DNA from: Rhizobium sp. NRK18
GTDB taxonomy: Bacteria > Pseudomonadota > Alphaproteobacteria > Rhizobiales > Rhizobiaceae
Assembly: GCF_024385575.1 (NCBI RefSeq)
Contig: NZ_JANFMV010000001.1
Coordinates: forward strand, 3,315,681-3,379,680
Length of the DNA: 64,000 bases
Reading direction: 5' to 3'
How positions within the stretch are numbered: position 1 is the stretch's first letter; each line of letters opens with the position of its first letter. The notes under the pieces are model-generated. The model was not told the DNA's origin and did not search any database. It was given only the letters and a program-made list of their open reading frames with translations. The translations under genes and the position numbers were made by a program. Shown here in pieces: positions 3,781 to 47,903 of this stretch.

Positions 3781-4194
3781 TCACTGGGTCGCGGCCAAGG
3801 TGATGCCGGCTTCGATCGTGACCTTCGAGCCGTCTTCGGTGACCGCCGTCAAACCGTCGCTGCTGACCGCAACGGAGGCGATCACGCCGGTGGTTTCGCC
3901 ATCGGCGGATGTGATCGTCTTGCCGATATAGCTCGACGCCTGCGACAGCGCCGTCTGCGAGATCAGGCTTTCCAGGTTGGTGTTCGTCTGGATGGTCTGC
4001 TCGACCTGCGAGAACGTCGCAAGCTGCGCGATCTGCTCGCTCGCATCCATCGGATCGGTCGGGTCCTGGTTCTTGATCTGGGCGATCAGCAACTGCAGGA
4101 AGTTGTCGTAGTTCAGCGTCGCGGAAGCCGAAGCCTTCGTGGCGGCAGTCGTTGTGGAAGTCGTCGTTGACGATGTGACTGCGTCTACCGCCAT
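3781..4194 (-). CDS. flgD: Flagellar hook cap / hook assembly protein FlgD (short alpha-proteobacterial form)
   Basis: 137 aa. After a Thr/Ser/Ala-rich start it has the conserved FlgD core: [21 protein letters not shown], then a Met-Asp-Ala-Ser-Glu stretch and [16 protein letters not shown]. FlgD caps the growing hook so that FlgE subunits can polymerise. The protein ends soon after the N-terminal FlgD domain; the Ig-like/tudor half of the about 230-aa enterobacterial protein is mostly missing, as is usual in rhizobia. The ATG overlaps the end of flbT by 10 nt. Confidence 0.92.
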
Positions 4195-4634
4195 GGTGCG
4201 ATCTCCTTGCGGATCTGTTCGATGGTCGAAGGCGACATTTCCTGTTCGTTCAGGATGCGGTCCTCGATCGGGTAAAGCTGACGAATGGCCTTCAGCGCTT
4301 CAAAGGCGCGACCGGACGACACCAGGCCGTCGATGCGCTTCAGCTCTGCCAGAACCTCTTCGTTCTTGAAGCAGGCGAGCAGCATCGTGACCGACTTGCG
4401 GAACATCGCAGTCGTCTGTTCGGCGCCCTCGGGATTGATGAGGATCATCTGGGAGATGAAGTAGAGCTGGCGCAGCGGCGTCGTTGCATCTTCCGGCTGA
4501 AGCACGTGGTTTTCCAGAAGGAACGTGACATCGTTCAGGAATTCCAGGGCCACCTTTCGGTCGACGCGAAGAACCGCGCCGTTGATGAAGATGCGCTCGC
4601 CGGATTTCAGCGAAATTCTGAGTGTACTTTTCAT
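4185..4634 (-). CDS. flbT: Flagellin post-transcriptional regulator FlbT
   Basis: 149 aa, beginning [20 protein letters not shown], the normal FlbT N-terminus. A longer in-frame extension upstream is open but overlaps flaF and looks non-coding; the chosen ATG overlaps the flaF stop as ATGA. FlbT is known in Caulobacter to bind the 5' leader of flagellin mRNA and regulate its translation and stability, and in Brucella to promote flagellin production. The flagellin leaders in this window (15.3-20.2 kb) share folded elements that could be its target. The neighbour flaF is its usual partner. Confidence 0.94.
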
Positions 4635-4978
4635 TGCAGGCCATCCCTGATGATGGTGGTCACGTCGATGATACCTTGGAAATTGTCCGTCTCCCGTTTC
4701 CGGATGCGGTCGCATTCCTTGAGTATCCATATTGCGATCGAGATGAGATTGGCGCGCAGTTCCTGGTTCAGCTGGTTCTCCGGCTGCTTCAGGTCCTCGA
4801 TGAAACGGATCCACACCCGACGGGTATAGAAGAGCGCCTCAATCGCATCACGGTTATAGCCACCGGCGGCCTTCGCCGCCCGCAGTAGTTCAATAGAACG
4901 GGTCAGGACTTGCCGTTCGCGATCCTTGGCGTCGGCGACGCCGTCCTCCATGATCTCGGCATATGAAAACTGGTACAT
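4631..4978 (-). CDS. flaF: Flagellin synthesis regulator FlaF
   Basis: 115 aa, beginning [20 protein letters not shown], typical of FlaF. The family is small, helical and cytoplasmic, and works with FlbT in controlling flagellin synthesis and secretion in alpha-proteobacteria. The central segment [19 protein letters not shown] is the conserved core. It follows flgL and precedes flbT with a 4-nt ATGA overlap, the standard hook-operon arrangement in Rhizobiaceae. Confidence 0.93.
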
Positions 4979-14429: not shown

Positions 14430-15073
14430 GCAATCGCTCTCCGAAGCCCATCGGCCCACGCTTCGAGCTTCGTGGTCATCAGGCTTCCGTCAATGTCGAC
14501 CTTCAGGTCGAGGCTCTGGTCTTCAACCAGGTGAATTTTTTCGGCGCTGTCGCCGAGTTCGGCTTTGATCCGGTCGAGCAATGGTCCTGGTCCCTTGACC
14601 GTAATGCGCCCGAACTCGCCATCGGAGATCGCCGTTTTGATCATGCCGGACAGCTCGGCGACGCCTGCGGCCGTCACGACTTCGCTCAGCAGCGGTGCGA
14701 TCACGGATGCCAGCTGGTCGCTCAAAACGGCCGCGATCTCGCCTGCCGCCTGCTCGATCTTCGCAAGCAGAAGGGATGCCATTTCACCATGCAGGCGCTC
14801 CTGAAGGGCTGCCATTTCGGTCTGATGGGCAGCCTTAAGCGCCTCACGTTCCTCGGCAAATTCCGTCAGAAGTTGCTCGCGGGCGGCAGCCTGGCCGTCT
14901 TCGAAGGCCTCGCGCCGCTCCGCCTCGACATCGACGGGAGGCGGCAAGTCGATCTCCGGGAATTGCAGCTCGTCCGCCTCGCCCATGAGGTCCAGGCCGA
15001 ATGCCATCTCATCGGGTGCAGGCGGGACCGGCTCGCTGAAATCCTTCAGCAGACGCGCGAGGGACGCATTCAT
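14426..15073 (-). CDS. FliH-like flagellar protein
   Basis: 215 aa, no signal peptide or membrane segment. The N-terminus is acidic and Pro-rich (residues 1-50), followed by a long Glu/Ala/Gln coiled coil (50-110) and a compact C-terminal region (LIKTAI-type helices, then DQSLDLKVDIDGSLMTTKLE). This architecture matches FliH, the regulator of the export ATPase FliI, and no other fliH candidate is seen in the window although fliI is present. It is the first gene before motB, with an ATGA overlap. FliH identity is inferred from architecture and context; an unrelated coiled-coil motility protein is possible. Confidence 0.65.
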   Translation of the reverse strand: MNASLARLLKDFSEPVPPAPDEMAFGLDLMGEADELQFPEIDLPPPVDVEAERREAFEDGQAAAREQLLTEFAEEREALKAAHQTEMAALQERLHGEMASLLLAKIEQAAGEIAAVLSDQLASVIAPLLSEVVTAAGVAELSGMIKTAISDGEFGRITVKGPGPLLDRIKAELGDSAEKIHLVEDQSLDLKVDIDGSLMTTKLEAWADGLRRAIA

Positions 15074-15380
15074 CGGCAGACCTCCTCTACGGAGGAAACA
15101 CCGGGCAGCCTCACGGATACAAAACCAATTGCTGGACTGACTGAATCGTTCGTTAACATCGCCTCACCCGGATTGCCGGCGCGTTCGATTCGGCGAATCG
15201 ACGGCCATGCCGCGGCCCGGCCGGGAAACGCGGCATGGCCGAAGCTAGGGTGTCAAACTTGTGCGAGGATGAAGGTATCGGGTCGCGCCAGGGCAATTGG
15301 CGCGACCCGCCGTTTCCGCCAATCGCCAATGACCAGAGGCGCGGCAGAATGGAATGGCGTCAGACTTTCAGCGCGCCGGC
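15074..15380. other. Intergenic region between flaC and the fliH-like/motB operon
   Basis: 307 nt without a supported gene. It should contain the promoter of the fliH-like/motB/motC/fliK operon (nearest 15074) and the 3' end of the flaC transcript. A perfect 11-bp inverted repeat at 15280-15308 is annotated separately. Confidence 0.5.
15280..15308 (-). terminator. Hairpin downstream of flaC
   Basis: Perfect 11-bp inverted repeat, GGGTCGCGCCA (15280-15290) and TGGCGCGACCC (15298-15308), with a 7-nt loop. It lies 73 nt after the flaC stop. There is no U-tract on the minus strand, so it may be an RNA-stabilising 3' end or a weak terminator. Confidence 0.5.
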
Positions 15381-16346
15381 TTACTGCCTGAAGAGGCTGA
15401 GGATGTTTTCCGCGTTGGTGTTGGCGATCGACAGCGACTGGATGCCGAGCTGCTGCTGCGTCTGCAGCGCCTTCAGCTTGGTGGATTCCTCGTTCATATC
15501 CGCATCGACGAGACGTCCGACGCCCTGGTCGATCACGTCCATGAGCGTGGCGACGAATTCCGTCTGCATGTCGATGCGGCTGGTGATGGCGCCGAGCGCA
15601 GAGGCCGAATCCGTGAGGTTCTGCAGCATGTCGTCGACGGCGCTGATCATGCCGTCGAGATCGGTGTCGCTGGAGGTGGTGTAGATCGTGACTTCGCTGC
15701 CGGACGCGGTGGTGGCAGATGACGCATCGATCAGGAAGTACTGAACCGTCGTGGTGCCGGTACCGCTCGGGATCGTCACCGTGACATCCTTCGTCAGCAA
15801 GCCGTAGGACGCGTCATTGGTATCGATCAGCACCGATTCCGCGGTATTGAAGGGCAGCGTCGTCACGGAGACGGATCCATCCGTCCCGCGGTTGAACGAG
15901 GCGACGATCTCCTTGGTACCCGGCGGCGTGCTCGATTCGTTGAAGAGCCAGTTCTCGCCGGAGAAGGAGGCAGATTCGGCGATCGAGGAGAGCTGCAGCT
16001 TGAGCTCGTGGAGTTCCTTGTTGATCTTGTCCTTGTCGACGCCGGGCTCGCGCGCGGCGACCAGCTTGGACTTGATCTCGGTCATCACGTTGATGGCGGA
16101 TTCAAGACCGGTATAGGCGGTATCAGCCTTGGCGGCGCCCAGGCCGAGTGCGTCCTGAACGGTGGACAGCGCCGCGTTGTCCGAGCGCATGGTGGTCGCG
16201 ATCGACCAGTAGGCGGCGTTGTCCGCCGCGGTCTCGACACGGTAGCCGGAGGAAACCCGATTCTGGGTCATCTCCATGTTCTTGTCGATGGATCTGAGTG
16301 TCTGAAGCGCCGCCATTGCGGCGGTGTTGGTCATGATGCTGGTCAT
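15381..16346 (-). CDS. flaC: Flagellin (fourth copy in the cluster)
   Basis: 321 aa, full length for rhizobial flagellins. D0/D1 regions are conserved at both ends: MTSIMTNTAAMAALQTLRSI at the N-terminus and KALQTQQQLGIQSLSIA, ending NILSLFRQ, at the C-terminus. The central D2/D3 part (residues 140-230) is the variable surface. It is the most divergent of the four paralogues here (for example NVMTEIKSKL, KELHELKLQL and a one-residue longer C-terminus). Named flaC by its place in the flaA-flaB-flaD-flaC order of Sinorhizobium. Translation may be regulated by the leader at 16347-16417. Confidence 0.93.
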   Translation of the reverse strand: MTSIMTNTAAMAALQTLRSIDKNMEMTQNRVSSGYRVETAADNAAYWSIATTMRSDNAALSTVQDALGLGAAKADTAYTGLESAINVMTEIKSKLVAAREPGVDKDKINKELHELKLQLSSIAESASFSGENWLFNESSTPPGTKEIVASFNRGTDGSVSVTTLPFNTAESVLIDTNDASYGLLTKDVTVTIPSGTGTTTVQYFLIDASSATTASGSEVTIYTTSSDTDLDGMISAVDDMLQNLTDSASALGAITSRIDMQTEFVATLMDVIDQGVGRLVDADMNEESTKLKALQTQQQLGIQSLSIANTNAENILSLFRQ

Positions 16347-16417
16347 TGGTCATTGCCCCGTTTCTGCAAGGGACATCCCGGAGTCTGATACCGGGAACGA
16401 CGGACAGCTTCATGCCA
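16347..16417 (-). promoter_or_regulatory. flaC leader: CCGG hairpin plus anti-Shine-Dalgarno element
   Basis: On the minus strand: box TGGCATGAAGC starting at 16417; hairpin CCCGG (16395-16391), 9-nt loop, CCGGG (16381-16377); then directly ATGTCCC, in which TGTCCC (16375-16370) can pair with the Shine-Dalgarno GGGGCA (16359-16354) across a 10-nt loop. The SD ends 7 nt before the ATG. The same ordered elements occur before the other three flagellin genes. Confidence 0.7.
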
Positions 16418-16575
16418 ATTGACCTGTTTGCCCTATGGTCAACCCGACGTTCATTAATAATTTGTTAAGGTTGATATAGTTAACAAATAGTTAACGCAAC
16501 GGGGAAACGGCCGGCAGATATGAAGAAAGCGTTAACGCGCATGCCTCACGCAAGTTTCGGGCCTTCATGACGCGG
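16418..16575. other. AT-rich region upstream of flaC
   Basis: Non-coding. The part at 16445-16500 is very AT-rich with repeated GTTAAC/TTAAT motifs (two GTTAAC sites about 10 nt apart), likely the flaC promoter/upstream activation region. No gene is visible. Confidence 0.45.
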
Positions 16576-16607
16576 AAAAGGCCGCATTCCGGAGAATGCG
16601 GCCTTTT
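16576..16607 (-). terminator. Intrinsic terminator of the third flagellin gene
   Basis: Perfect 14-bp inverted repeat AAAAGGCCGCATTC (16576-16589) and GAATGCGGCCTTTT (16594-16607) with a 4-nt loop; the minus-strand transcript ends in a U-run. It lies 46 nt after the stop of the flagellin gene at 16653-17615. The arms are A/T at the base, so it could also work from the opposite strand. Confidence 0.9.
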
Positions 16608-16652
16608 GCCTGATCACTGGTCGGGCGCCAGGAGCGCCATGCTCCGCTCCGA

Positions 16653-17615
16653 TTAACGGAAGAGCGAGAGGATGTTGTCGGAGTTGCTGTTGGCGATCGA
16701 CAGCGACTGGATACCCAGCTGCTGCTGCGTCTGCAGCGCCTTCAGCTTGGTCGACTCTTCGTTCATGTCGGCGTCGACGAGGCGGCCGACGCCGGTGTCG
16801 ATCACGTCCATGAGGTCGGCGACGAACTCGTTCTGCATGTCGATACGGGACTTGGTCGCGCCGAGCGAAGAAGCCGCATCCGTCATGTCGGAAAGCATCG
16901 CGTCAACGGCGCTGATCATGCCTTCGACTTCGTCGTCGGAGGTGGTCGTGTAGAGCGTGACTTCCGAACCCGCTGCCGACGTTGTCGAGGAGGCGTCGAT
17001 CAGGAAGTACTGAACCGTCGTCGTGCCGGTGCCGCTCGGGATCGTCGCGGTATAGTCCTTCGTGAGCAGGCCGTCGCCTGCGTCGTTGGTGTCGACCAGG
17101 GTCGATTCCGCCGTATCGAAGCTGATGAGCTTGACGGAGACGGAGTTGTCAGACGCGCGGACGAAAGAGCCGACCATTTCCTTGGTGGCCGGAGCGGTCG
17201 TCGTATCGTTATAGAGCCAGTTTTCACCGGAGAACGAAGCGGACTCGGCGATCGAGGACAGCTGCGACTTCAGCTCGGTCAGTTCCGAGTTGATCTTTTC
17301 CTTGTCAACGCCCGGCTCGCGGGCTGCAACAAGCTTGGCCTTGATTTCGGATACGACGTCGATCGACGAATCCATTGCGGTGTAGGCGGTGTCGACCTTC
17401 GCGGCACCGAGACCCAGAGCGTCCTGAACGGTGGAGAGAGCCTTGTTGTCCGAACGCATGGTGGTCGCGATCGACCAGTAGGCGGCGTTGTCGGAAGCCG
17501 TGTCGACCCGGTAGCCGGAAGAGATACGGTTCTGTGTTTCTTCCATGCTCGAATTGATCGAACGCATGGTGTTCAGCGCCGCAATTGCTGCGCCGTTGGT
17601 CATGATACTCGTCAT
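16653..17615 (-). CDS. flaD: Flagellin (third copy in the cluster)
   Basis: 320 aa. Terminal domains match the other flagellins (MTSIMTNGAAIAALNTMRSI; ending NSDNILSLFR). The middle differs from its neighbours at KEMVGSFVRASDNSVSVKLISF and YTTTSDDEVEGMIS. Named flaD by position in the Sinorhizobium order; the assignment of B versus D cannot be proved from sequence alone. Own leader and own terminator indicate a monocistronic unit. Confidence 0.92.
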   Translation of the reverse strand: MTSIMTNGAAIAALNTMRSINSSMEETQNRISSGYRVDTASDNAAYWSIATTMRSDNKALSTVQDALGLGAAKVDTAYTAMDSSIDVVSEIKAKLVAAREPGVDKEKINSELTELKSQLSSIAESASFSGENWLYNDTTTAPATKEMVGSFVRASDNSVSVKLISFDTAESTLVDTNDAGDGLLTKDYTATIPSGTGTTTVQYFLIDASSTTSAAGSEVTLYTTTSDDEVEGMISAVDAMLSDMTDAASSLGATKSRIDMQNEFVADLMDVIDTGVGRLVDADMNEESTKLKALQTQQQLGIQSLSIANSNSDNILSLFR

Positions 17616-17693
17616 TGGTACTGCCCCTTTTGGACGTAAACAAATGGAAGGGACATTCCGGAATTACCGGCAACGGCGGCTAGCATCATGCAA
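17616..17693 (-). promoter_or_regulatory. flaD leader: CCGG hairpin plus anti-Shine-Dalgarno element
   Basis: Minus strand: box TTGCATGATGC starting at 17693; hairpin CCGG (17670-17667), TAATT loop, CCGG (17661-17658), with a G/A mismatch at the closing position; then ATGTCCCTT. TGTCCCTT (17655-17648) pairs over 8 bp with AAGGGGCA (17629-17622), which contains the Shine-Dalgarno; 6 nt then lead to the ATG. This is the longest of the four SD/anti-SD pairings. Confidence 0.7.
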
Positions 17694-17790
17694 GCCGACT
17701 TTTCAGGTCAACCCGCCGTTTGATGACCTGATCAGACACGATTATAGTTAAGATAGGATAAATGGCAGATTTTTATGCTTAACCAGCCAT

Positions 17791-17826
17791 AAAAAGAAAA
17801 TCCGCACCCAGGGGAAGGTGCGGATT
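17791..17826 (-). terminator. Intrinsic terminator of the second flagellin gene
   Basis: Inverted repeat AATCCGCACC (17799-17808) and GGTGCGGATT (17817-17826), 8-nt loop, followed on the minus strand by TTTTCTTTTT. It lies about 48 nt after the stop of the flagellin gene at 17874-18836. Confidence 0.88.
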
Positions 17827-17873
17827 ATACTGCCAACGGATAGGCTTTATTAATTTTATATTAACCGCCGCCC

Positions 17874-18836
17874 TTACCGGAAGAGCGAGAGGATGTTTTC
17901 GGAGTTGCTGTTGGCAATCGACAGCGACTGGACGCCGAGCTGCTGCTGCGTCTGCAGCGCCTTCAGCTTGGTCGACTCTTCGTTCATGTCGGCATCGACG
18001 AGGCGACCGACACCGGTGTCGATCACGTCCATCAGATCCTTGACGAATTCCGACTGCATGTCGATGCGGGACTTGGTGGCGCCGAGCGACGCGGCAGAGT
18101 CCGTCATGTCGGACAGCATCGCGTCGACCGCGCTGATCATGCCCTCGACATCCGTGTCGCTGCTGGTCGTGTAGAGAACGACTTCGCTACCAGCCGCCGA
18201 TGTGGACGATGAGGCGTCAATCAGGAAGTATTGGACCGTGGTCGTGCCGGTGCCCGACGGAATGGTCGCCGTATAATCCTTCGTCAGCAGGCCATCGCCG
18301 GCATCGTTGGTGTCGACGAGGGTTGAGGTCGACGTGTCGAAGCTGATGGTCTGGATCGAGACCGAACCGTCCGTCGAGCGGATGAAGGAACCAACCATCT
18401 CCTTGGTGCCGGGCGCAGTCGTGGTATCGTTGTAGAGCCAGTTTTCACCGGAGAAGGAGGCGGACTGGGAAATGGAGGACAGCTGGGCCTTCAGCTCGGT
18501 CAGTTCCGAGTTGATCTTTTCCTTGTCGACGCCTGGTTCGCGGGCGGCAACCAGCTTGGCCTTGATCTCGGAGACCACGTTGATCGCCGAGTCCATCGCG
18601 GTGTAGGCGGTGTCGGCCTTGGCGGCACCGAGGCCGAGAGCATCTTCGACCGTCGAGAGCGCCTTGTTGTCGGAGCGCATCGTCGTGGCGATCGACCAAT
18701 AGGCCGCGTTGTCGGAAGCCGATTCGACCCGGTAGCCGGACGAAATGCGGTTTTCTGTTTGCTCCAAGGACTTGTCGATGGAGCGCATCGTGTTGAGCGC
18801 GGCCATTGCCGCTGCGTTCGTCATGATACTAGTCAT
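17874..18836 (-). CDS. flaB: Flagellin (second copy in the cluster)
   Basis: 320 aa from ATG 18836 (MTSIMTNAAAMAALNTMRSI); an upstream in-frame extension of 18 codons is leader sequence. Very similar to the flagellins on either side through residues 1-130 and 235-320, differing in the central exposed region (GSFIRSTDGSVSIQTISFDT). Named flaB by order. Flagellins are exported without signal peptide and assemble the filament; rhizobial filaments are complex and need several flagellins. Confidence 0.92.
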   Translation of the reverse strand: MTSIMTNAAAMAALNTMRSIDKSLEQTENRISSGYRVESASDNAAYWSIATTMRSDNKALSTVEDALGLGAAKADTAYTAMDSAINVVSEIKAKLVAAREPGVDKEKINSELTELKAQLSSISQSASFSGENWLYNDTTTAPGTKEMVGSFIRSTDGSVSIQTISFDTSTSTLVDTNDAGDGLLTKDYTATIPSGTGTTTVQYFLIDASSSTSAAGSEVVLYTTSSDTDVEGMISAVDAMLSDMTDSAASLGATKSRIDMQSEFVKDLMDVIDTGVGRLVDADMNEESTKLKALQTQQQLGVQSLSIANSNSENILSLFR

Positions 18837-18920
18837 TTTGGCATTGCCCCTGTTTATTCCGTTTGGCAGCGGGACATGCCGGATTTGCAATTACCGGCGA
18901 GGGTGATCTGCGTCATGCCA
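18837..18920 (-). promoter_or_regulatory. flaB leader: CCGG hairpin plus anti-Shine-Dalgarno element
   Basis: Minus strand: box TGGCATGACGC starting at 18920; hairpin GCCGG (18898-18894), 11-nt loop, CCGGC (18882-18878); then ATGTCCC. TGTCCC (18876-18871) can pair with the Shine-Dalgarno GGGGCA (18850-18845) across a 20-nt loop; 8 nt separate SD and ATG. Confidence 0.7.
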
Positions 18921-19051
18921 ATTAATTTGCGCCATACAAGAAATTAATTCACCGCTCTGATTTGTTAACAAATGCACCGTCATGGTTAACAAAGCATAAA
19001 TAGCGACGGATTTTTCTTAATTGCCTGGTAATTTTAATTAATCCTAACGCG

Positions 19052-19081
19052 AAAAAGGCCGCACCGCGGGGGTGCGACCTT
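19052..19081 (-). terminator. Intrinsic terminator of the first flagellin gene
   Basis: Inverted repeat AAGGCCGCACC (19055-19065) and GGTGCGACCTT (19071-19081) with one internal mismatch and a 5-nt loop; the minus strand continues with a T-run. It lies about 49 nt after the flaA stop. Confidence 0.85.
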
Positions 19082-19129
19082 AATTTTTGGCCTTTCGGAG
19101 GGCTTTTCAGCGCTCTTTCAGGTGATTCG

Positions 19130-20092
19130 TTAACGGAAGAGCGACAGCACGTTTCCGCTATCGCTGTTGGCGATCGAGAGCGCCTGGATACCGAGCTGCT
19201 GCTGCGTCTGCAGCGCCTTCAGCTTGGTCGACTCTTCGTTCATGTCGGCATCGACGAGACGGCCGACACCGGTGTCGATCACGTCCATCAGGTCGGAAAC
19301 GAATTCCGTCTGCATGTCGATGCGCGACTTGGTGGCGCCGAGGGTCGAGGCTGCATCCGTCATGTCGGAGAGCATCGAGTCGACGGCGCTGATCATGCCT
19401 TCGACCTGATCGTCGGTTGTCGTGGTGTAGAGTTCGACTTCCGAACCTGCCGCCGACGTTGTCGAGGAGGCATCGATGAGGAAGTACTGGACCGTCGTCG
19501 TGCCGGTACCCGACGGAATGGTCGCGGTGTAGTCCTTCGTCAGAAGGCCCTGGTCAGCATCGTCAGTGTCGACGAGAACCGACTTGGACGTGTCGAACGA
19601 GATCGTCTGCAGCGAAACGGAACCATCCGAGCCACGCGTGAACGAGGCAACCATTTCCTTGGTGCCCGGTGCGGTCGTGGTGTCGTTGTACAGCCAGTTT
19701 TCGCCGGAGAAGGAAGCGGACTCGGCAATCGAGGACAGCTGCGACTTCAGTTCGGTCAGTTCCGAGTTGATCTTGTCCTTGTCGACACCCGGTTCGCGGG
19801 CGGCAACTAGCTTGGACTTGATCTCGGTCACGACGTTGATCGCGGAGTCCATACCGGTGTAGGCGGTATCTGCCTTGGCAGCGCCGAGACCCAGTGCGTC
19901 CTGCACGGTGGAGAGCGCGGCGTTGTCCGAACGCATGGTGGTCGCGATCGACCAGTAAGCGGCGTTGTCGGACGCGTTATCGACACGGTAGCCGGAGGAA
20001 ATGTGGTTCTGCGTCTCTTCCATCTTGGAATTGATGCCACGCAGAGTGTTCAGAGCCGCAATAGCGGAGTTGTTCGTCATAAGACTGGTCAT
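19130..20092 (-). CDS. flaA: Flagellin (first copy in the cluster)
   Basis: 320 aa (MTSLMTNNSAIAALNTLRGI at the start; ending SGNVLSLFR). Conserved D0/D1 ends and variable centre (VASFTRGSDGSVSLQTISFD). It is the first flagellin after fliP; in Sinorhizobium the gene in this place, flaA, encodes the principal subunit. It has its own leader with folding elements and its own terminator, so it is read as a single-gene transcript. Confidence 0.94.
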   Translation of the reverse strand: MTSLMTNNSAIAALNTLRGINSKMEETQNHISSGYRVDNASDNAAYWSIATTMRSDNAALSTVQDALGLGAAKADTAYTGMDSAINVVTEIKSKLVAAREPGVDKDKINSELTELKSQLSSIAESASFSGENWLYNDTTTAPGTKEMVASFTRGSDGSVSLQTISFDTSKSVLVDTDDADQGLLTKDYTATIPSGTGTTTVQYFLIDASSTTSAAGSEVELYTTTTDDQVEGMISAVDSMLSDMTDAASTLGATKSRIDMQTEFVSDLMDVIDTGVGRLVDADMNEESTKLKALQTQQQLGIQALSIANSDSGNVLSLFR

Positions 20093-20173
20093 GGGATCGT
20101 CCCTTGGTTACGAAATACAAAGAGGGACATACCGGACTGATTTTCCGGTCATGACGGTCCGGCATCATGCCAC
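20093..20173 (-). promoter_or_regulatory. flaA leader: CCGG hairpin plus anti-Shine-Dalgarno element
   Basis: Minus strand: box TGGCATGATGC starting at 20172; hairpin ACCGG (20149-20145), 9-nt loop, CCGGT (20135-20131); then ATGTCCC. GTCCCT (20128-20123) pairs with AGGGAC (20104-20099), extended by one U-G pair, across an 18-nt loop. AGGGAC is the Shine-Dalgarno, 6 nt before the ATG. Here the SD differs from the other three (GGGAC instead of GGGGCA) yet pairing is kept. Confidence 0.72.
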
Positions 20174-20304
20174 TTGGTTATTCAAAACCGTGCCCGTCAA
20201 GTGATCTGACATTAGGGATTCACTCCTTGCCAAGACCTTAATTTCGGGCCTCGCATTGGAGTAAGATAGTATATGGTTACCAGCGGTTTAAGGGAATGTG
20301 CGGC

Positions 20305-21045
20305 TTACGAGAAGGAGCGCACGAGGCTGCCGACAAGCAGGTTCCAGCCGTCGATCAGCACGAAGAAGAGCACCTTGAACGGAAGCGAGATCGAGGTCGG
20401 CGGCAGCATCATCATGCCCATGGCCATGGTGATGGTGGCGACGATCAGGTCGATGACCAGGAACGGCAGGACGACGAGAAAGCCGATTTCGAAACCGCGC
20501 CGGATTTCCGAAATCATGAATGCCGGGATCAGCACATGATAGTCGACCTTGCCGTCGGTCTCGACGACGGTCTGGCCGCGTTCGCGGGCAAGGTCGACGA
20601 AGAGGTTGAGATCCTTGTCTCGCGTGTTGGCGGACATGAAGGTCCGGAACGGTTCGGCGATCCGCCCTATCGCCTCGGCTTCGGTGATCTGGTTGGCAAG
20701 AAGCGGCTGCAGCCCGTCATCCCATGATTTCTGCATGGTCGGCGCCATGACATAGAAGGTCATGAACAGGGCAAGGCTCAGCATGACCATATTCGACGGC
20801 GCCGATGCCAGCCCCATGCCGGAACGCAGGATCGAAAAGGCAATTACGAAGCGCGGGAAGCTGGTGACCATCACCAGGATGCCCGGCGCGATCGACAGGA
20901 CCGTCAACAGGCCGAAGGTGCGGATGATCCATGCGGCAACGGATCCATCAATCTGTGTGTTCAACAGATCGGAGGGCAGCTGCTGCGCGAGCGCGACCGC
21001 CGGCAGAAGCAGCAGTCCGCTCAAGATGGAGATGAGCCGAATCAT
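20305..21045 (-). CDS. fliP: Flagellar export gate protein FliP
   Basis: 246 aa with a cleavable-type N-terminal hydrophobic segment (MIRLISILSGLLLLPAVALA) and four further membrane helices. Family motifs are present: VMVTSFPRFVIAFSILRSGM and, near the C-terminus, GFLVVLPFLVIDLIVATI and MMMLPPTSISLPFKVLFFVL. FliP is the central pore subunit of the export gate. Last gene of the flgF-to-fliP operon; ATG overlaps the fliL stop (ATGA). Confidence 0.96.
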   Translation of the reverse strand: MIRLISILSGLLLLPAVALAQQLPSDLLNTQIDGSVAAWIIRTFGLLTVLSIAPGILVMVTSFPRFVIAFSILRSGMGLASAPSNMVMLSLALFMTFYVMAPTMQKSWDDGLQPLLANQITEAEAIGRIAEPFRTFMSANTRDKDLNLFVDLARERGQTVVETDGKVDYHVLIPAFMISEIRRGFEIGFLVVLPFLVIDLIVATITMAMGMMMLPPTSISLPFKVLFFVLIDGWNLLVGSLVRSFS

Positions 21046-42835: not shown

Positions 42836-45139
42836 TTAACCTGCCGCTGCCAATGCCGCGTTCGGGCTGAGCGGCTGCCCCCGCGATGCGGCGCATACCG
42901 CGTCAACATCGAGAATGAGAGCCACCCGGCCGTCTCCCAGGATCGTGGCTGCCGCGATCCCCGGAACGTGGGAGTAATTTGCCTCAAGACTCTTAATAAC
43001 CACCTGACGCTGTCCCTGGATCGCATCGACCATGAGGGCGCGCTGGCCGCCGCTCTCGGATTCGACGAGAAGCGCGACGCCCTCGACCGGATCCGCGCTG
43101 GTGGCGCGGTAGTTGAGGATGCGGCCGACATCGACCAGCGGGCAGAAGCCATCGCGGATCGAAAGCAGGCGATGGTTGGAGCCGTAGGAGTGGATGGACT
43201 TCGCTTCCGGCTGCAGCGTCTCGACGATCGCCGTCAGCGGCACGACGAGCGTCTGGCCGGCGACCGTGACGACCATGCCGTCGAGGACGGCGAGCGTCAG
43301 CGGCAGGCTCATGGTGAAGACGGAACCCTTGCCCGGCGTCGACGAGATCGAGATACGGCCGCCGAGCGCCTGAATGGAGCGCTTGACCACGTCCATGCCG
43401 ACACCACGACCGGAAATGTCGGAGATCTTGTCGGCAGTCGAGAAGCCCGGAAGGAAGATCAGGTTGTCGATCTCTTCATCGGAAAGCGGCGTTTCGGAGG
43501 TGATCAGATCGTTGTCGATCGCCTTCTGGCGGACGCGCTCGCGGTTGATGCCGGCGCCGTCGTCGGCCAGCTCGATCAGGATGCGGCCGGAACGATGCTT
43601 GGCAGTGAGGCGAACGGTGCCTTCCGGATTCTTGCCGGCGGCTTCGCGCTTTTCCGGCGTCTCCACGCCGTGATCGACGGCGTTGCGGATCATGTGCGTC
43701 AGCGGCTCGGCCAGCTTGTCGATGACCGTCTTGTCCACTTCGGTGTTTTCACCTTCGGTGATCAGACGGATCTGCTTGCCGGTCATGTCGGCCACTTCGC
43801 GAACGATACGCGACATGCGCTGGAAGACCGGCTTGACCGGCTGCGCGCGGATGGCCATCACGCTGTCCTGGATTTCGCGGGTGAGCTGCTGCAGCTCTTC
43901 GAGACCCATGTTCATGGAGTTGGTGCCGGAGGCATCGTTCTCGATGACGCTCTGCGACAGCATGGCCTGGTTGATGACGAGCTCGCCGACAAGGTTGATC
44001 AGGCGGTCGACGCGGTCGAGGTCGACGCGGATCGTCTGAGCGACACCGCCGCCGGCAGAATTCTGTGCCTGGGCCGCAGCCGCAAGGGCGGCGGCCTTTT
44101 CGGCCTCGGAGGTCGAGGATGCGGTTTGGCGTACGACGTCGCGGGCCGTCTGGGCGGCTGCGATGGCGTCGGCAATCGGGGCTGCGATGACCGGAGCGGG
44201 GGCCGGGCGCACCGGCTCGACAACGGTTTCCATGACCGGCTCTTCATCCGCCTCGTCAACGCCGTCGAGGGCAGACAGGTCGAAGGGAACCGGTATCATC
44301 GGCAATTCGGATGCGTCGCCTTCGGCGTCGGTTGCGTGCGCCGTTATCTCGAGGTCGCAATCCCACTCGGCGAATTCGAAGACCGAACGAATGCCTTCTT
44401 CGCCCTTTTCCGTTTCGATGGAGATATCCCAATGGAAGTAGGCGCCTTCCGGATCCATCTGGTCGAGGACCGGGAGGGATTCCATGTCGCAACGGATGCT
44501 CATCGTTCCGATGCGCGACAGGTCGCGCAGCAGAAGCGCTGCTTCGTTGCCCTTGTTGTACAGTTCGGCACGCGGCTTGAACTTCACATCGAAGGAGGGA
44601 AGCGGTCCCTGAGCTTCTTCTTCGCCACCGAAATCGTCGAAGGAGAACGGGATCGGCGCAAAACCTTCCTCACCAGCAGCCGGCTGTGGAGCAGCGGCCG
44701 GAGCTGGGGCGGGTGTCGGTACAGGCGTCGGCGCGGCGGCGGAGGGTGCTGGCATTTCCCCCTTTGCGAGCGCCTCGAGCTCCTTGACGAGCCCGGCGCT
44801 GCGGCTCGGATCGACACTGCCGCCGTCACGGGCGGCGGCGGTCAGATCGGCGAGCACGTCGGCCGACTTGAGCATCACCTTCATGACGTCCAGGTTTGGC
44901 TCAAGCTTGTTGGATCGAACGCAATCAAGAGTGGTCTCGAAAACATGCGCGAACGCCACCAGATCGTCGAGGCCGAACGCACCGGCGCCGCCCTTGATCG
45001 AATGGACGGCCCGGAACACGGCATTCACCGTTTCGGGATCACGATCGCCATCATTCATCTTCAGGAGACCGGATTCCAGTTCGGCGAGCTGCTCCTCGCA
45101 CTCCTGGAAAAAGATCTCTTTGATTTCGTTCATATCCAT
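42836..45139 (-). CDS. cheA: Chemotaxis histidine kinase CheA
   Basis: 767 aa. P1 Hpt domain with phosphorylated His46 (RAVHSIKGGAGAF), an Ala/Pro-rich linker around 120-150, a P2-like region, dimerisation domain near 375-440, kinase domain with N box (LTHMIRNAVDHGVE), G1 (LADDGAGINRERV) and G2 (SGRGVGMDVVK), and a C-terminal CheW-like P5 domain (about 620-750). It phosphorylates CheY1, CheY2 and CheB. cheY1 lies 13 nt upstream. The coupling protein CheW must be encoded elsewhere. Confidence 0.97.
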   Translation of the reverse strand: MDMNEIKEIFFQECEEQLAELESGLLKMNDGDRDPETVNAVFRAVHSIKGGAGAFGLDDLVAFAHVFETTLDCVRSNKLEPNLDVMKVMLKSADVLADLTAAARDGGSVDPSRSAGLVKELEALAKGEMPAPSAAAPTPVPTPAPAPAAAPQPAAGEEGFAPIPFSFDDFGGEEEAQGPLPSFDVKFKPRAELYNKGNEAALLLRDLSRIGTMSIRCDMESLPVLDQMDPEGAYFHWDISIETEKGEEGIRSVFEFAEWDCDLEITAHATDAEGDASELPMIPVPFDLSALDGVDEADEEPVMETVVEPVRPAPAPVIAAPIADAIAAAQTARDVVRQTASSTSEAEKAAALAAAAQAQNSAGGGVAQTIRVDLDRVDRLINLVGELVINQAMLSQSVIENDASGTNSMNMGLEELQQLTREIQDSVMAIRAQPVKPVFQRMSRIVREVADMTGKQIRLITEGENTEVDKTVIDKLAEPLTHMIRNAVDHGVETPEKREAAGKNPEGTVRLTAKHRSGRILIELADDGAGINRERVRQKAIDNDLITSETPLSDEEIDNLIFLPGFSTADKISDISGRGVGMDVVKRSIQALGGRISISSTPGKGSVFTMSLPLTLAVLDGMVVTVAGQTLVVPLTAIVETLQPEAKSIHSYGSNHRLLSIRDGFCPLVDVGRILNYRATSADPVEGVALLVESESGGQRALMVDAIQGQRQVVIKSLEANYSHVPGIAAATILGDGRVALILDVDAVCAASRGQPLSPNAALAAAG

Positions 45140-45152
45140 AGGAAGTATCCCG

Positions 45153-45518
45153 TTAGGCGGTTACACGCTCAATCGCATCGATCAGTTTGGTCGGATCGAA
45201 AGGCTTCACGATCCAGCCGGTCGCACCAGCCTGGCGGGCGCGGTTCTTCTTCTCGGCGTCGCTTTCGGTGGTCAGGACCAGGATCGGAATGGCGCGGTAC
45301 TTGTCGTTCTTGCGAACGCCCTCGATGAAGCCGAAGCCATCGAGACGCGGCATGTTGATGTCGGTGACGATGACATCGGGGCATGCATTTTCGAGGACTT
45401 CCAGTCCCTCGACGCCGTCTTCGGCCTGGATCGTTTCGAATCCGGCGTTGTTCAACGTCACGAGGAGCATATTACGAATGGTCCGTGAATCATCCACGGT
45501 AAGCACTCTCTTCTTCAT
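45153..45518 (-). CDS. cheY1: Chemotaxis response regulator CheY1
   Basis: 121 aa receiver: Asp9/Asp10, phosphoacceptor Asp53 (VIVTDINMPRLDG), Thr83/Thr84 and Lys105. In Sinorhizobium CheY1 acts as phosphate sink for CheY2-P. Its ATG overlaps the upstream STAS gene stop as ATGA. Confidence 0.94.
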   Translation of the reverse strand: MKKRVLTVDDSRTIRNMLLVTLNNAGFETIQAEDGVEGLEVLENACPDVIVTDINMPRLDGFGFIEGVRKNDKYRAIPILVLTTESDAEKKNRARQAGATGWIVKPFDPTKLIDAIERVTA

Positions 45519-45814
45519 TGCTGAATCTCCTTAGCCAGCAGGTGATCAATGTTGACGCCGATGAGCTGCAGCGTCTTTGAAAATACGTCCGAGACCTTGT
45601 TGAACACGAAGGCCTTCTTGTCTTCTTCCCAGGCCCTGGAACCGGCGATCAGCACCTGGACGCACTGGGCACCGACCCGCTCGACGCCAGATGCGTCGAG
45701 AGCGAGGTCCTTGCCACGCAGTTCCATGAGCTTCCCGTGCAGGGTGGAAGCTTCGTTGAGGTCGAGCACGGCAGACAGCTTCAGCTCCGCAGTCTCACTC
45801 TTTTTCTTCGTCAT
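45515..45814 (-). CDS. STAS-domain chemotaxis protein (CheS/orf2 position)
   Basis: 99 aa from ATG 45814 (MTKKKSETAELKLSAVLDLN). It has STAS/anti-anti-sigma fold features: LDLNEASTLHGKLMELRGKD, then LALDASGVERVGAQCVQVLI with the Ser near residue 45. The second gene of rhizobial che operons (cheS in Sinorhizobium, orf2 in Agrobacterium), where it promotes CheY1 dephosphorylation via CheA. An in-frame extension of nine codons upstream is less likely. Confidence 0.9.
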   Translation of the reverse strand: MTKKKSETAELKLSAVLDLNEASTLHGKLMELRGKDLALDASGVERVGAQCVQVLIAGSRAWEEDKKAFVFNKVSDVFSKTLQLIGVNIDHLLAKEIQQ

Positions 45815-45875
45815 CAGAACCTTCCTTGTTCCAGACCGCATTCATGTTCCCGACGCTCGCCGGCGACGGCGTGCT

Positions 45876-47507
45876 TCAACCTCCGGCAGCGCCGGCAATG
45901 GCGATCGCCGGCATCGCGGCGACCTCCCAATCCAGTTCCCTGTCCAGCGTGTCCTGCGCTTCCTCGGTGACGCGGGCGGGCGCGATGTCCACGCGTGCGG
46001 TCGGCCGGGGCGCAGCGAACTGCCGCTGGTAGCGGAATTCCCTGACCGTCGCGCCGAGCTCGACGATGACGGTGTGCAGATCTTCGGCGCCCTGCCCGGA
46101 GCGGGCCGCAGCTTCGGTATTGCGGGCGATGGCGGAACGCGCGGAACTCAGCTCGTCCGACAGGCGCTTCAATTCGCTTGCATGGCTGCCGGTGTCGCGG
46201 GCGATGCCGGCGATGGAATCGCTGATGCCGTTGACCTGGGTGACGATCTCGCCGATGGCGGTCTGCGTGCGGGCGACCATTTCGACGCCTTCGTCGACCT
46301 GGGCCTTGGTATTGGTGACGAGCGCCTTGATCTCGCGCGCGGCCTCGGCCGAGCGCTGTGCGAGGCCGCGAACCTCCTGGGCGACGACCGCAAAGCCACG
46401 GCCCGTTTCGCCGGCGCGGGCTGCCTCGATGCCGGCATTGAGCGCCAGAAGATTGGTCTGGAAGGCGATGTCGTCGATGACGCCGATGATCTTGCCGATC
46501 TCGTCTGCTGAACTTTCGATGCCCGACATGGCCGAAATCGCCTGGCCGACGATCTGACCACTGGTTTCCGCCGATTGCCGCGTCTTCGCAACGGCCTCTT
46601 CCGCGCCGCGGGTCATCTCGGCGTTGCGGCGGACATCGGCCGTCAGGTCGCCAAGCGCCTGCACCGACCCTTCGAGAGACTGACACTGGTCGAGCGCCCT
46701 TGCGGCGAAGACACGGGCATCGGTGGCGATCGAACCGGTCTGCTGCTCGGTCTTCTCAAGCGCGCCGGAAAAGCGGAGGAAATTGTCCTGCAGGGCTTCC
46801 ATCGCCGTGTTCAGCTGCGAGGCGAGGTGCGCATAGTTGCCGGCGTCTTCGACATCGGCGCGGGCGGTCAGGTCATTTTGGGACAGTGCCGCCAGAACGG
46901 AGCCGAAAACCTCTTCGACCTGCGCCTGCTCTGACTTGCGCTGTGCGGCGAGCTGCTGCTTGTGTTCGACACGCAGGGCGTTGAACCGCAGGGAGACAGC
47001 GATCTCGACATCGACCAGAACGAGACGAATGATTGCGGCGGCCAGCTCTGACATTTCCTGCGCGCGCTTCTTGCCCGAGGAGAGCAGCGAGCGGCCGGAG
47101 GCTTCGCCAATGATTGCAGACAGCAGGTGTTCGAGGACGACCGCGTGGCCGGCGACGTGCCAGCGCGGATCCAGCCCCATCTTCGATTCCGCATCCGAAA
47201 GCACCTTCACGCGCTCGGCGTAGAGGCTGTCGAAGCGGGCGTCCGTCAGAACGTCCCAATGAGACGCCTGCAGGTCGTGCAGCCGTTCGACCTGACGCTC
47301 GCTCGAAAAATTCGCGGAGGCTTCAGGAATCGACTGGAAACGGTGGAAAAGATCGCGCAGGCCGGCGTTGACGCTCGCCTGCATCTGGGGACGGTGACGG
47401 CGCAGGAGATCACATTCATCGGCGCCCAAGCCGGCAAAACGCAGGCGCTCGCGCAGGCTTCCAGCCCTCGCTCCGCTCGCCTGTTCTGTCGTCGGCTTGT
47501 TGTTCAA
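45876..47507 (-). CDS. Soluble methyl-accepting chemoreceptor with protoglobin-like sensor (IcpA-like)
   Basis: 543 aa from TTG 47507, which has GGGGA 7 nt upstream; the open frame extends 35 codons further but that part lacks an SD and reads like leader. No membrane segments. Residues 15-165 resemble the sensor domain of globin-coupled transducers ([20 protein letters not shown] region), followed by a HAMP-less linker and an MCP signalling domain with tip [20 protein letters not shown]. In the position of the haem-binding proximal His the sequence has Glu107 by my alignment. First gene of the che operon, the place of icpA in Sinorhizobium. Confidence 0.88.
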
Positions 47508-47903
47508 GTCCAGTCCCCGCAATCGCCCATGGCCGGTCGGCCGAATAAACCAAATCCCGGAATCCGGCGGTCGAGGGGACGCTCCAGAGGGGAACGGTCT
47601 CCGACCACGCAAAATGCTCGCAAAATATTGGCTTGATTTACATACCGGCCCAGATCCGGTTCCGACGGTGCGGCGTCATGCCTTATGGGAATTTCGGCAG
47701 CAGATATCCCATCCCGACGTACAAGCTAATCATTATGGTTAATTCCTTGCTTGAAGGTTAATTTTTGGTGCCCTCTGCCGAACTAGTCAGATTTAACCAC
47801 TTCGTCACTTTCCAGCAGGGAGGCACCGACAGCCAGAAGCAAGCTTATCGCTGTATCCAGACAAGAAGGGCATGTCAGTTAGACAGTATCGGGGGTTGTA
47901 ACG
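47508..47903. other. Intergenic region upstream of the che operon
   Basis: 396 nt between the chemoreceptor gene and a small plus-strand gene. It should hold the che operon promoter (minus) near 47520-47700; 47720-47790 is AT-rich with TTAATT motifs. No other gene is supported. Confidence 0.5.

Follow-up and report, generated by a model that had tools for sequence, protein, structure and literature searches.

Flagellin leaders of Rhizobium sp. NRK18 and its relatives: a probable two-part element ending in a hairpin over the Shine–Dalgarno sequence

Do the flagellin genes of Rhizobium sp. NRK18 hide their own ribosome-binding sites, and what else belongs to the structure that would hide them? 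The question is raised by a window of 64,000 nt (NZ_JANFMV010000001.1, positions 3,315,681 to 3,379,680; the window means this whole stretch), in which a first-pass annotation proposed that a word directly upstream of flaA, flaB, flaD and flaC pairs with the Shine–Dalgarno (SD) sequence. Our comparison of flagellin leaders indicates that this hairpin recurs across families of one order but is only the last part, P4, of a larger structure, and that the leaders very probably share a conserved two-part architecture with the SD hairpin at its end. We give a probability of roughly 0.6 to the reading in which P4 hides the SD under the control of a factor that acts on the preceding helices, P1–P3.

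From 5' to 3', the element runs through P1 (which encloses P2 and P2b), P3 and P4, up to the flagellin AUG. P1 has about 8 bp (AACGnCGG/CCGnCGUU) and is variable in sequence; P2 is a variable hairpin; P2b is a mini-hairpin, CAUGANG (GCAUGANGC), whose C, A, U, A and G do not vary across alignment A2; and P3 consists of CCGG, a loop of 5–16 nt and CCGG. P4 pairs UGUCCC with GGGGC or GGGAC, followed by 3–10 nt and the AUG, and its third pair (U–G, U–A or C–G) is paired in 247 of 248 rows. The copies before the window's flagellin genes, with scores of the covariance model R1, are as follows.

19130..20092, minus strand: flaA, flagellin (profile match)
20090..20222, minus strand: flaA leader element, R1 64.4 bits; P1 placed by eye, since the model misplaces it here
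20194..20199, minus strand: flaA P1 5' arm TGACGG, partner CCGTCA at 20152-20157 (by eye and fold)
20161..20171, minus strand: flaA P2b GGCATGATGCC, AUGAN loop (invariant core)
20131..20149, minus strand: flaA P3, ACCGG..CCGGT
20098..20129, minus strand: flaA P4, anti-SD TGTCCC and SD AGGGAC (sequence and fold)
17874..18836, minus strand: flaB, flagellin
18834..18965, minus strand: flaB leader element, R1 73.5 bits; P1 18949-18956/18899-18906, P2 18943-18948/18921-18926, P2b 18910-18918, P3 18878-18898, P4 18845-18876
16653..17615, minus strand: flaD, flagellin
17613..17729, minus strand: flaD leader element, R1 88.6 bits; P1 17713-17720/17672-17679, P2 17707-17712/17694-17699, P2b 17683-17691, P3 17657-17671, P4 17622-17655
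15381..16346, minus strand: flaC, flagellin (PF00669, PF00700)
16344..16460, minus strand: flaC leader element, R1 88.9 bits; P1 16444-16451/16396-16403, P2 16438-16443/16418-16423, P2b 16407-16415, P3 16377-16395, P4 16354-16375

All four proposed pairings exist as written: GTCCCT with AGGGAC across a loop of 18 before flaA (ATG 20092), TGTCCC with GGGGCA across 20 before flaB (ATG 18836), TGTCCCTT with AAGGGGCA across 18 before flaD (ATG 17615) and TGTCCC with GGGGCA across 10 before flaC (ATG 16346). In any one leader alone, such pairing is unremarkable and not above chance. Shuffles of the region upstream of -18 reached the best helix in 109, 158, 132 and 494 of 1000 cases for flaA, flaB, flaD and flaC, and a comparable helix (either longer than 6 bp or of exactly 6 bp, four or more of them Watson–Crick) occurs at 111 of 257 other gene starts of the same loci; a test of the claim therefore required comparison between leaders. 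The weight of the evidence is the same word repeated at the same place across leaders. All six core pairs of P4 form in 110/121 and 70/83 gap-free rows. The predicted probability that the SD is unpaired is 0.016 (flaA), 0.177 (flaB), 0.003 (flaD) and 0.003 (flaC), a value matched or undercut by 0, 21, 0 and 2 of 100 shuffles, and its median over 216 leaders is 0.005 versus 0.17 when shuffled (lower than shuffled in 170 of the 216). With the SD mostly buried in the predicted fold and the pairing conserved, these count as predicted SD-sequestering leaders.

The repeated word ATGTCCC also admits a reading as the start of an upstream frame whose stop is coupled to the flagellin start through an ATGA overlap. 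By eye, the flaA and flaD frames do end as ATGA over the flagellin start, and this overlap is present in 38 of the 186 leaders that have the ATG. However, the frame relative to the flagellin is evenly spread (67, 61, 55), 16 of 202 leaders lack the ATG and 64 of 186 frames stop before the flagellin start; on these grounds we rejected the upstream frame, which is largely refuted and scarcely credible.

Comparison drew on 289 flagellin leaders, 249 of them distinct in their last 110 nt, collected from the window, 77 named loci (titled mostly as Rhizobium and its kin, a few by order or class alone) and loci from genome searches. A pattern filter passed 197 of the 249, from which 54 diverse leaders were picked and 49 entered A2 after five odd-looking ones were removed by eye; R1 was built from 49 diverse leaders, 47 of them from the window and L006–L082 and two from other loci. 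Run on the window and the 77 loci, R1 gave 220 matches; for 217 of them, the end lies no more than 6 nt from the start codon of a flagellin. Counted from the genes, 217 of the 220 flagellin starts with at least 160 nt upstream (window and L006–L082) were matched, which places the element directly before the flagellin. The three remaining matches are a copy before the che operon (below), a match truncated where its contig ends and a third that lies 83 nt away from a flagellin start.

A2 is a plain MAFFT alignment in whose fitting structure played no part; 85.9% of its cells are paired, and 169 cells have changed on both sides versus 64 ± 10 in shuffles. In alignments A3 and A4 (together 217 distinct rows, including one che copy), 89.6% and 87.8% of cells are paired, with 528 and 375 both-side changes versus 157 and 121, and sliding the structure along them lowers pairing to 32–50%. 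A tree-aware test of 29 pairs called 9 significant in A3 and 5 in A4; all of these lie in P1 or P2, and none in P2b, P3 or P4. A merged set of 252 rows, which excludes the che row and one antisense fragment, gave 1794 paired cells in P1 against a null of 1225 ± 86 and 1232 in P2 against 732 ± 60, each reached by 0 of 300 simulations, and 504 in P2b against 489, reached by 1 of 300. For P4, the count was 1660 against 1536 ± 60 from the columns' own substitutions (1 of 300), so the SD/anti-SD pairing noted at first is retained in relatives beyond this null. Covariation within that helix, the check proposed with the first-pass annotation, did not appear: none of its eight pairs was significant in A3 or A4, a test that has little power for P4 because its strands are nearly invariant. 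Judged by sequence comparison, support thus comes from covariation for P1 and P2, from retention of pairing for P4 and from near-invariance for P3.

Is the conserved structure RNA? In P1 and P2, G–U cells outnumber A–C cells in both A3 (65 versus 28 and 87 versus 17) and A4 (52 versus 26 and 56 versus 12), which favors pairing on the transcribed strand. Upstream of P1, 119 of 214 leaders have a CtrA-like box within 90 nt, versus a mean of 2.3 in shuffles, and TTAAC begins 29–33 nt before P1 in 116 of 214; box and spacing together suggest a transcript start near P1. In the window, the boxes (pattern matches only) are these; the pattern has no match upstream of flaA or of the che copy.

18985..18999, minus strand: CtrA-like box TTATGCTTTGTTAAC, upstream of flaB P1
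17747..17761, minus strand: CtrA-like box TTATCCTATCTTAAC, upstream of flaD P1
16479..16494, minus strand: CtrA-like box, upstream of flaC P1

In Sinorhizobium meliloti, flaA, flaB and flaC are listed among direct CtrA targets and a CtrA site is given at the flaA promoter, according to passages of PMC4433202. The flaA promoter region of the window (20200-20260) has AATTAAGGTCTTGGCAAGGA in place of the TTAAC box that flaB, flaD and flaC share; at this position, a different GCAA..GCGA pattern is present in some leaders from other loci.

What use is made of P1–P3 apart from P4? A platform-only model, R2, was built from alignment A6, which took 43 of 50 chosen flagellin and che-type leaders (seven, including one che-type copy, were dropped by eye). 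In the genome of NRK18, R2 gives five hits at E <= 8.8e-8, at the four flagellins and at a che operon; its next match has E 0.3.

47606..47730, minus strand: fifth copy, before the che operon, R1 39.2 bits, R2 56.3 bits, with no anti-SD word; P1 47714-47721/47661-47668, P2 47708-47713/47684-47689, P2b 47673-47681, P3 47644-47660
45876..47507, minus strand: first gene behind it, a protoglobin methyl-accepting chemotaxis protein (MCP), start codon chosen by eye
45515-45841: STAS gene, after the protoglobin-MCP gene
45153-45518: response regulator
42836-45139: CheA-type kinase

The che genes that follow the copy were checked in the window. With the protoglobin part of the first gene as query, relatives were found in 41 of 107 family genomes, and we took the 24 best of these (including L151) together with L152, which was added through R1; 22 of the 25 copies were selected by protein alone and three were known from R1 beforehand. 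R1 matches all 25 stretches before the protoglobin-MCP gene (E 7e-12 to 5e-3 in 21,960 bases; 24 of 25 at <= 6e-5). No anti-SD-like word lies within 12 nt of P3 in 24 of them; the exception, L174, carries TGCCC, but the 60 nt read contain nothing SD-like to pair with it. Of the eight P4 pairs in the model, seven are represented by letters in 10 che-type rows at most. Before protoglobin-MCP, then, the platform stands without the hairpin that follows it before the flagellins.

These copies speak for a rival in which P1–P3 is a stability element at the 5' end of late motility mRNAs and P4 a passive setting for low translation, with no switch. That P1 may begin near the 5' end of the transcript fits it as well, but in several families, most flagellin leaders keep P4 at a short distance after P3, which is more than stability alone would need, and we consider this explanation unlikely.

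Which factor might act on the platform? FlbT and FlaF are both encoded in the window, as had been stated at the outset.

4185..4640, minus strand: FlbT, candidate RNA-binding partner (PF07378, 145 bits)
4631..4978, minus strand: FlaF (PF07309, 118 bits)

FlbT is found in 90 of the 107 family genomes; every one of the 81 genomes matched by R1 has it, and none of the 17 without FlbT has such a match, a co-occurrence confounded because both depend on having flagella. In one genome from a second family, a pair of tandem flagellins (301 aa where the frame was read completely) follows the element, and homologues of flgL, flaF, flbT and flgD lie about 11 kb away; flgD, flbT, flaF and flgL are named among lateral-flagellum genes in passages of PMC6406911. 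FlbT is our leading candidate for the factor that would act on the platform, an assignment that we hold tentatively and at somewhat less than even odds.

The element extends beyond the 81 of 107 sampled family genomes matched by R1. Because several large-scale searches were filtered more strictly, each count of genomes lacking a match is a maximum. R2 matches 36 of 199 genomes of the order, 28 of them outside the window's family, and 26 of those 28 were looked at. The first 16 out-of-family loci place the element before a flagellin-like start in 15 cases and before an MCP-like open reading frame (ORF) in one; 20 further loci (two also within L203) gave 17 flagellin-like starts, one MCP-like ORF, one unresolved and one not caught. 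One of those 17 (L226) has its flagellin-like start 156 nt downstream and lacks P4. R1 matches all 36 out-of-family loci, with 39 sense matches (E 1.6e-21 to 4.8e-7); among distinct elements, 35 of 36 have ATG at their end, and the six core pairs of P4 are complete in 29 of 36. At class level, R1 matches 3 of 289 genomes and R3 5 of 387, two each outside the order (L149 and L150; L240 and L241), which we rejected as chance matches with no flagellin behind them. Two matches in the genome of NRK18 were likewise set aside as chance, one of R1 at C1:3503582 before a response regulator (E 9e-5; R2 E 1.0) and one of R2 at C1:1426719 (E 0.3). A fifth flagellin-like gene of that genome (L005, C1:1484746-1485684; 46% identity) has no R1 or R2 match.

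In the two MCP-like cases (L212 and L222, another family), an anti-SD-like word and a GGGGC word follow P3; since the element stands before these ORFs, flagellins and che are not the only genes with which it is used. The genes seen behind the element are flagellins, protoglobin-MCP and the two MCP-like ORFs, with no metabolic or heat-shock gene among them, and this argues against P4 as a thermometer that melts with heat or P1–P3 as the binding site of a small molecule. P4 alone is weak (predicted -8.0 to -9.1 kcal/mol in the four window leaders) and a conserved junction with an SD hairpin does resemble riboswitches; even so, we regard a temperature or metabolite sensor as highly improbable.

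Several points weigh against SD hiding under the control of a platform-bound factor; the gravest concern the position of the transcript start, pair-level covariation in P4 and the che copy. No P4 pair covaries (in the merged set, the lowest of the eight was reached by 10 of 300 simulations by paired count and 16 of 300 by G), anti-SDs exchanged between leaders pair as well as the native ones, and pairing in P3 is not significant in the merged set (1147 versus 1098, reached by 41 of 300). Alignments A3, A4, A5, A7 and A8 were fitted to a model, which biases them towards the structure. The platform without P4 before che suggests that the platform can be of use where P4 is absent. FlbT occurs without an R1 match in nine of the 107 genomes, and also outside the order (Caulobacter control), where the sampled genomes give chance-like matches only. 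That the element, P1–P3 included, is present in the mRNA is something we infer, and there is no G–U excess over A–C in P1 and P2 of che-type copies (19 versus 22) or out-of-family elements (21 versus 21), where numbers are small. The last two points would suit P1–P3 as a DNA element, an operator or promoter with inverted repeats, as would the placing of fla and che together among late (class III) genes in passages of PMC8429497. Such an element would have to accommodate compensatory changes in P1 and P2 with variable sequence, the G–U excess in the 217 distinct A3 and A4 rows and CtrA-like boxes that lie upstream of P1, and we judge it improbable.

In the reading that we prefer, SD hiding by P4 under control through P1–P3, the first module would be a platform, a junction closed by P1 with a variable P2 and a fixed P2b, then P3. 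The second would be the output, P4, in which the anti-SD UGUCCC beside P3 pairs with the SD GGGGCA or GGGACA and would close the ribosome site by default. A trans-acting factor, with FlbT foremost and perhaps relayed by FlaF or by flagellin export, would recognize the platform and shift P4 between closed and open, such that flagellin is made once the hook-basal body can export it. At the che operon, which has the platform alone, the same factor could act without SD hiding, for example on mRNA stability. We infer the sequestration of the SD in the cell, the factor and the direction of control.

An SD-like GGGCA (often CAGGGCAAA) also occurs in the P2 region or loop in 48 of 217 leaders versus 7.5 in shuffles, including flaC (16418-16443), and could compete with the true SD for pairing with the anti-SD. 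A more speculative extension, which we think rather doubtful, is that P1–P3 is a common address of late motility mRNAs in the order, read with an SD-hiding output in fla and without it in che: flagellin translation and che output could then be adjusted separately by a single assembly signal, and the GGGCA of the P2 loop could make the true switch a loop-to-anti-SD exchange. We envision several uses of the element. The effect of FlbT differs in sign between bacteria, and a defined, alignable RNA with separable parts provides a substrate for that question; the che copy, naturally without P4, offers a comparison for the fla leaders; and covariance models from the element locate flagellin starts across the order.

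Among known systems, flg-Rhizobiales RF01736 (Weinberg 2010, passages of PMC2864571) is likewise a cis-regulatory RNA of the same order. We rejected identity with it, because its covariance model matches none of 61 family genomes, including that of NRK18; across the order, it matches 27 of 199 genomes at E <= 0.001, six of them above the cut-off, and not that of NRK18. Unlike the new element, RF01736 has a different fold, and its 3' end enters a frame reading MENALLIGLSRQ, which we take to be FlgF, rather than a flagellin. RF01736 matches at L112–L117, and weaker ones, extend into the opening codons of a flgF-like frame, and additional families of the order have matches below the cut-off. None of 4227 Rfam 15 families exceeds its gathering score in positions 15000-21000 of the window or in seven loci, the sole match in that part of the window being sR42, below its gathering score, on the plus strand inside the flaC coding region; no description of the element was found in open-license literature, where subscription papers are mostly absent.

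Another is that of Bradyrhizobium diazoefficiens, where, according to passages of PMC8429497, FlbT translationally induces LafA1 and LafA2; the tandem flagellins with flaF and flbT nearby in the second-family genome resemble that arrangement. No RNA element is described in those passages. In passages of a review (PMC4347634), FlbT promotes degradation in Caulobacter and is a proposed activator in Brucella, and its mode of action is called unresolved. A flagellin leader of Caulobacter crescentus under FlbT control is described in parts of PMC3930126, PMC4347634 and PMC7591256. A difference is that the genomes sampled outside the order give R1 and R3 matches that are chance-like only. The Caulobacter leader was reportedly the subject of work by Anderson and Gober in 2000. 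The leaders described here resemble it in that control would be post-transcriptional and would act at the flagellin 5' untranslated region, in a genome that encodes both FlbT and FlaF.

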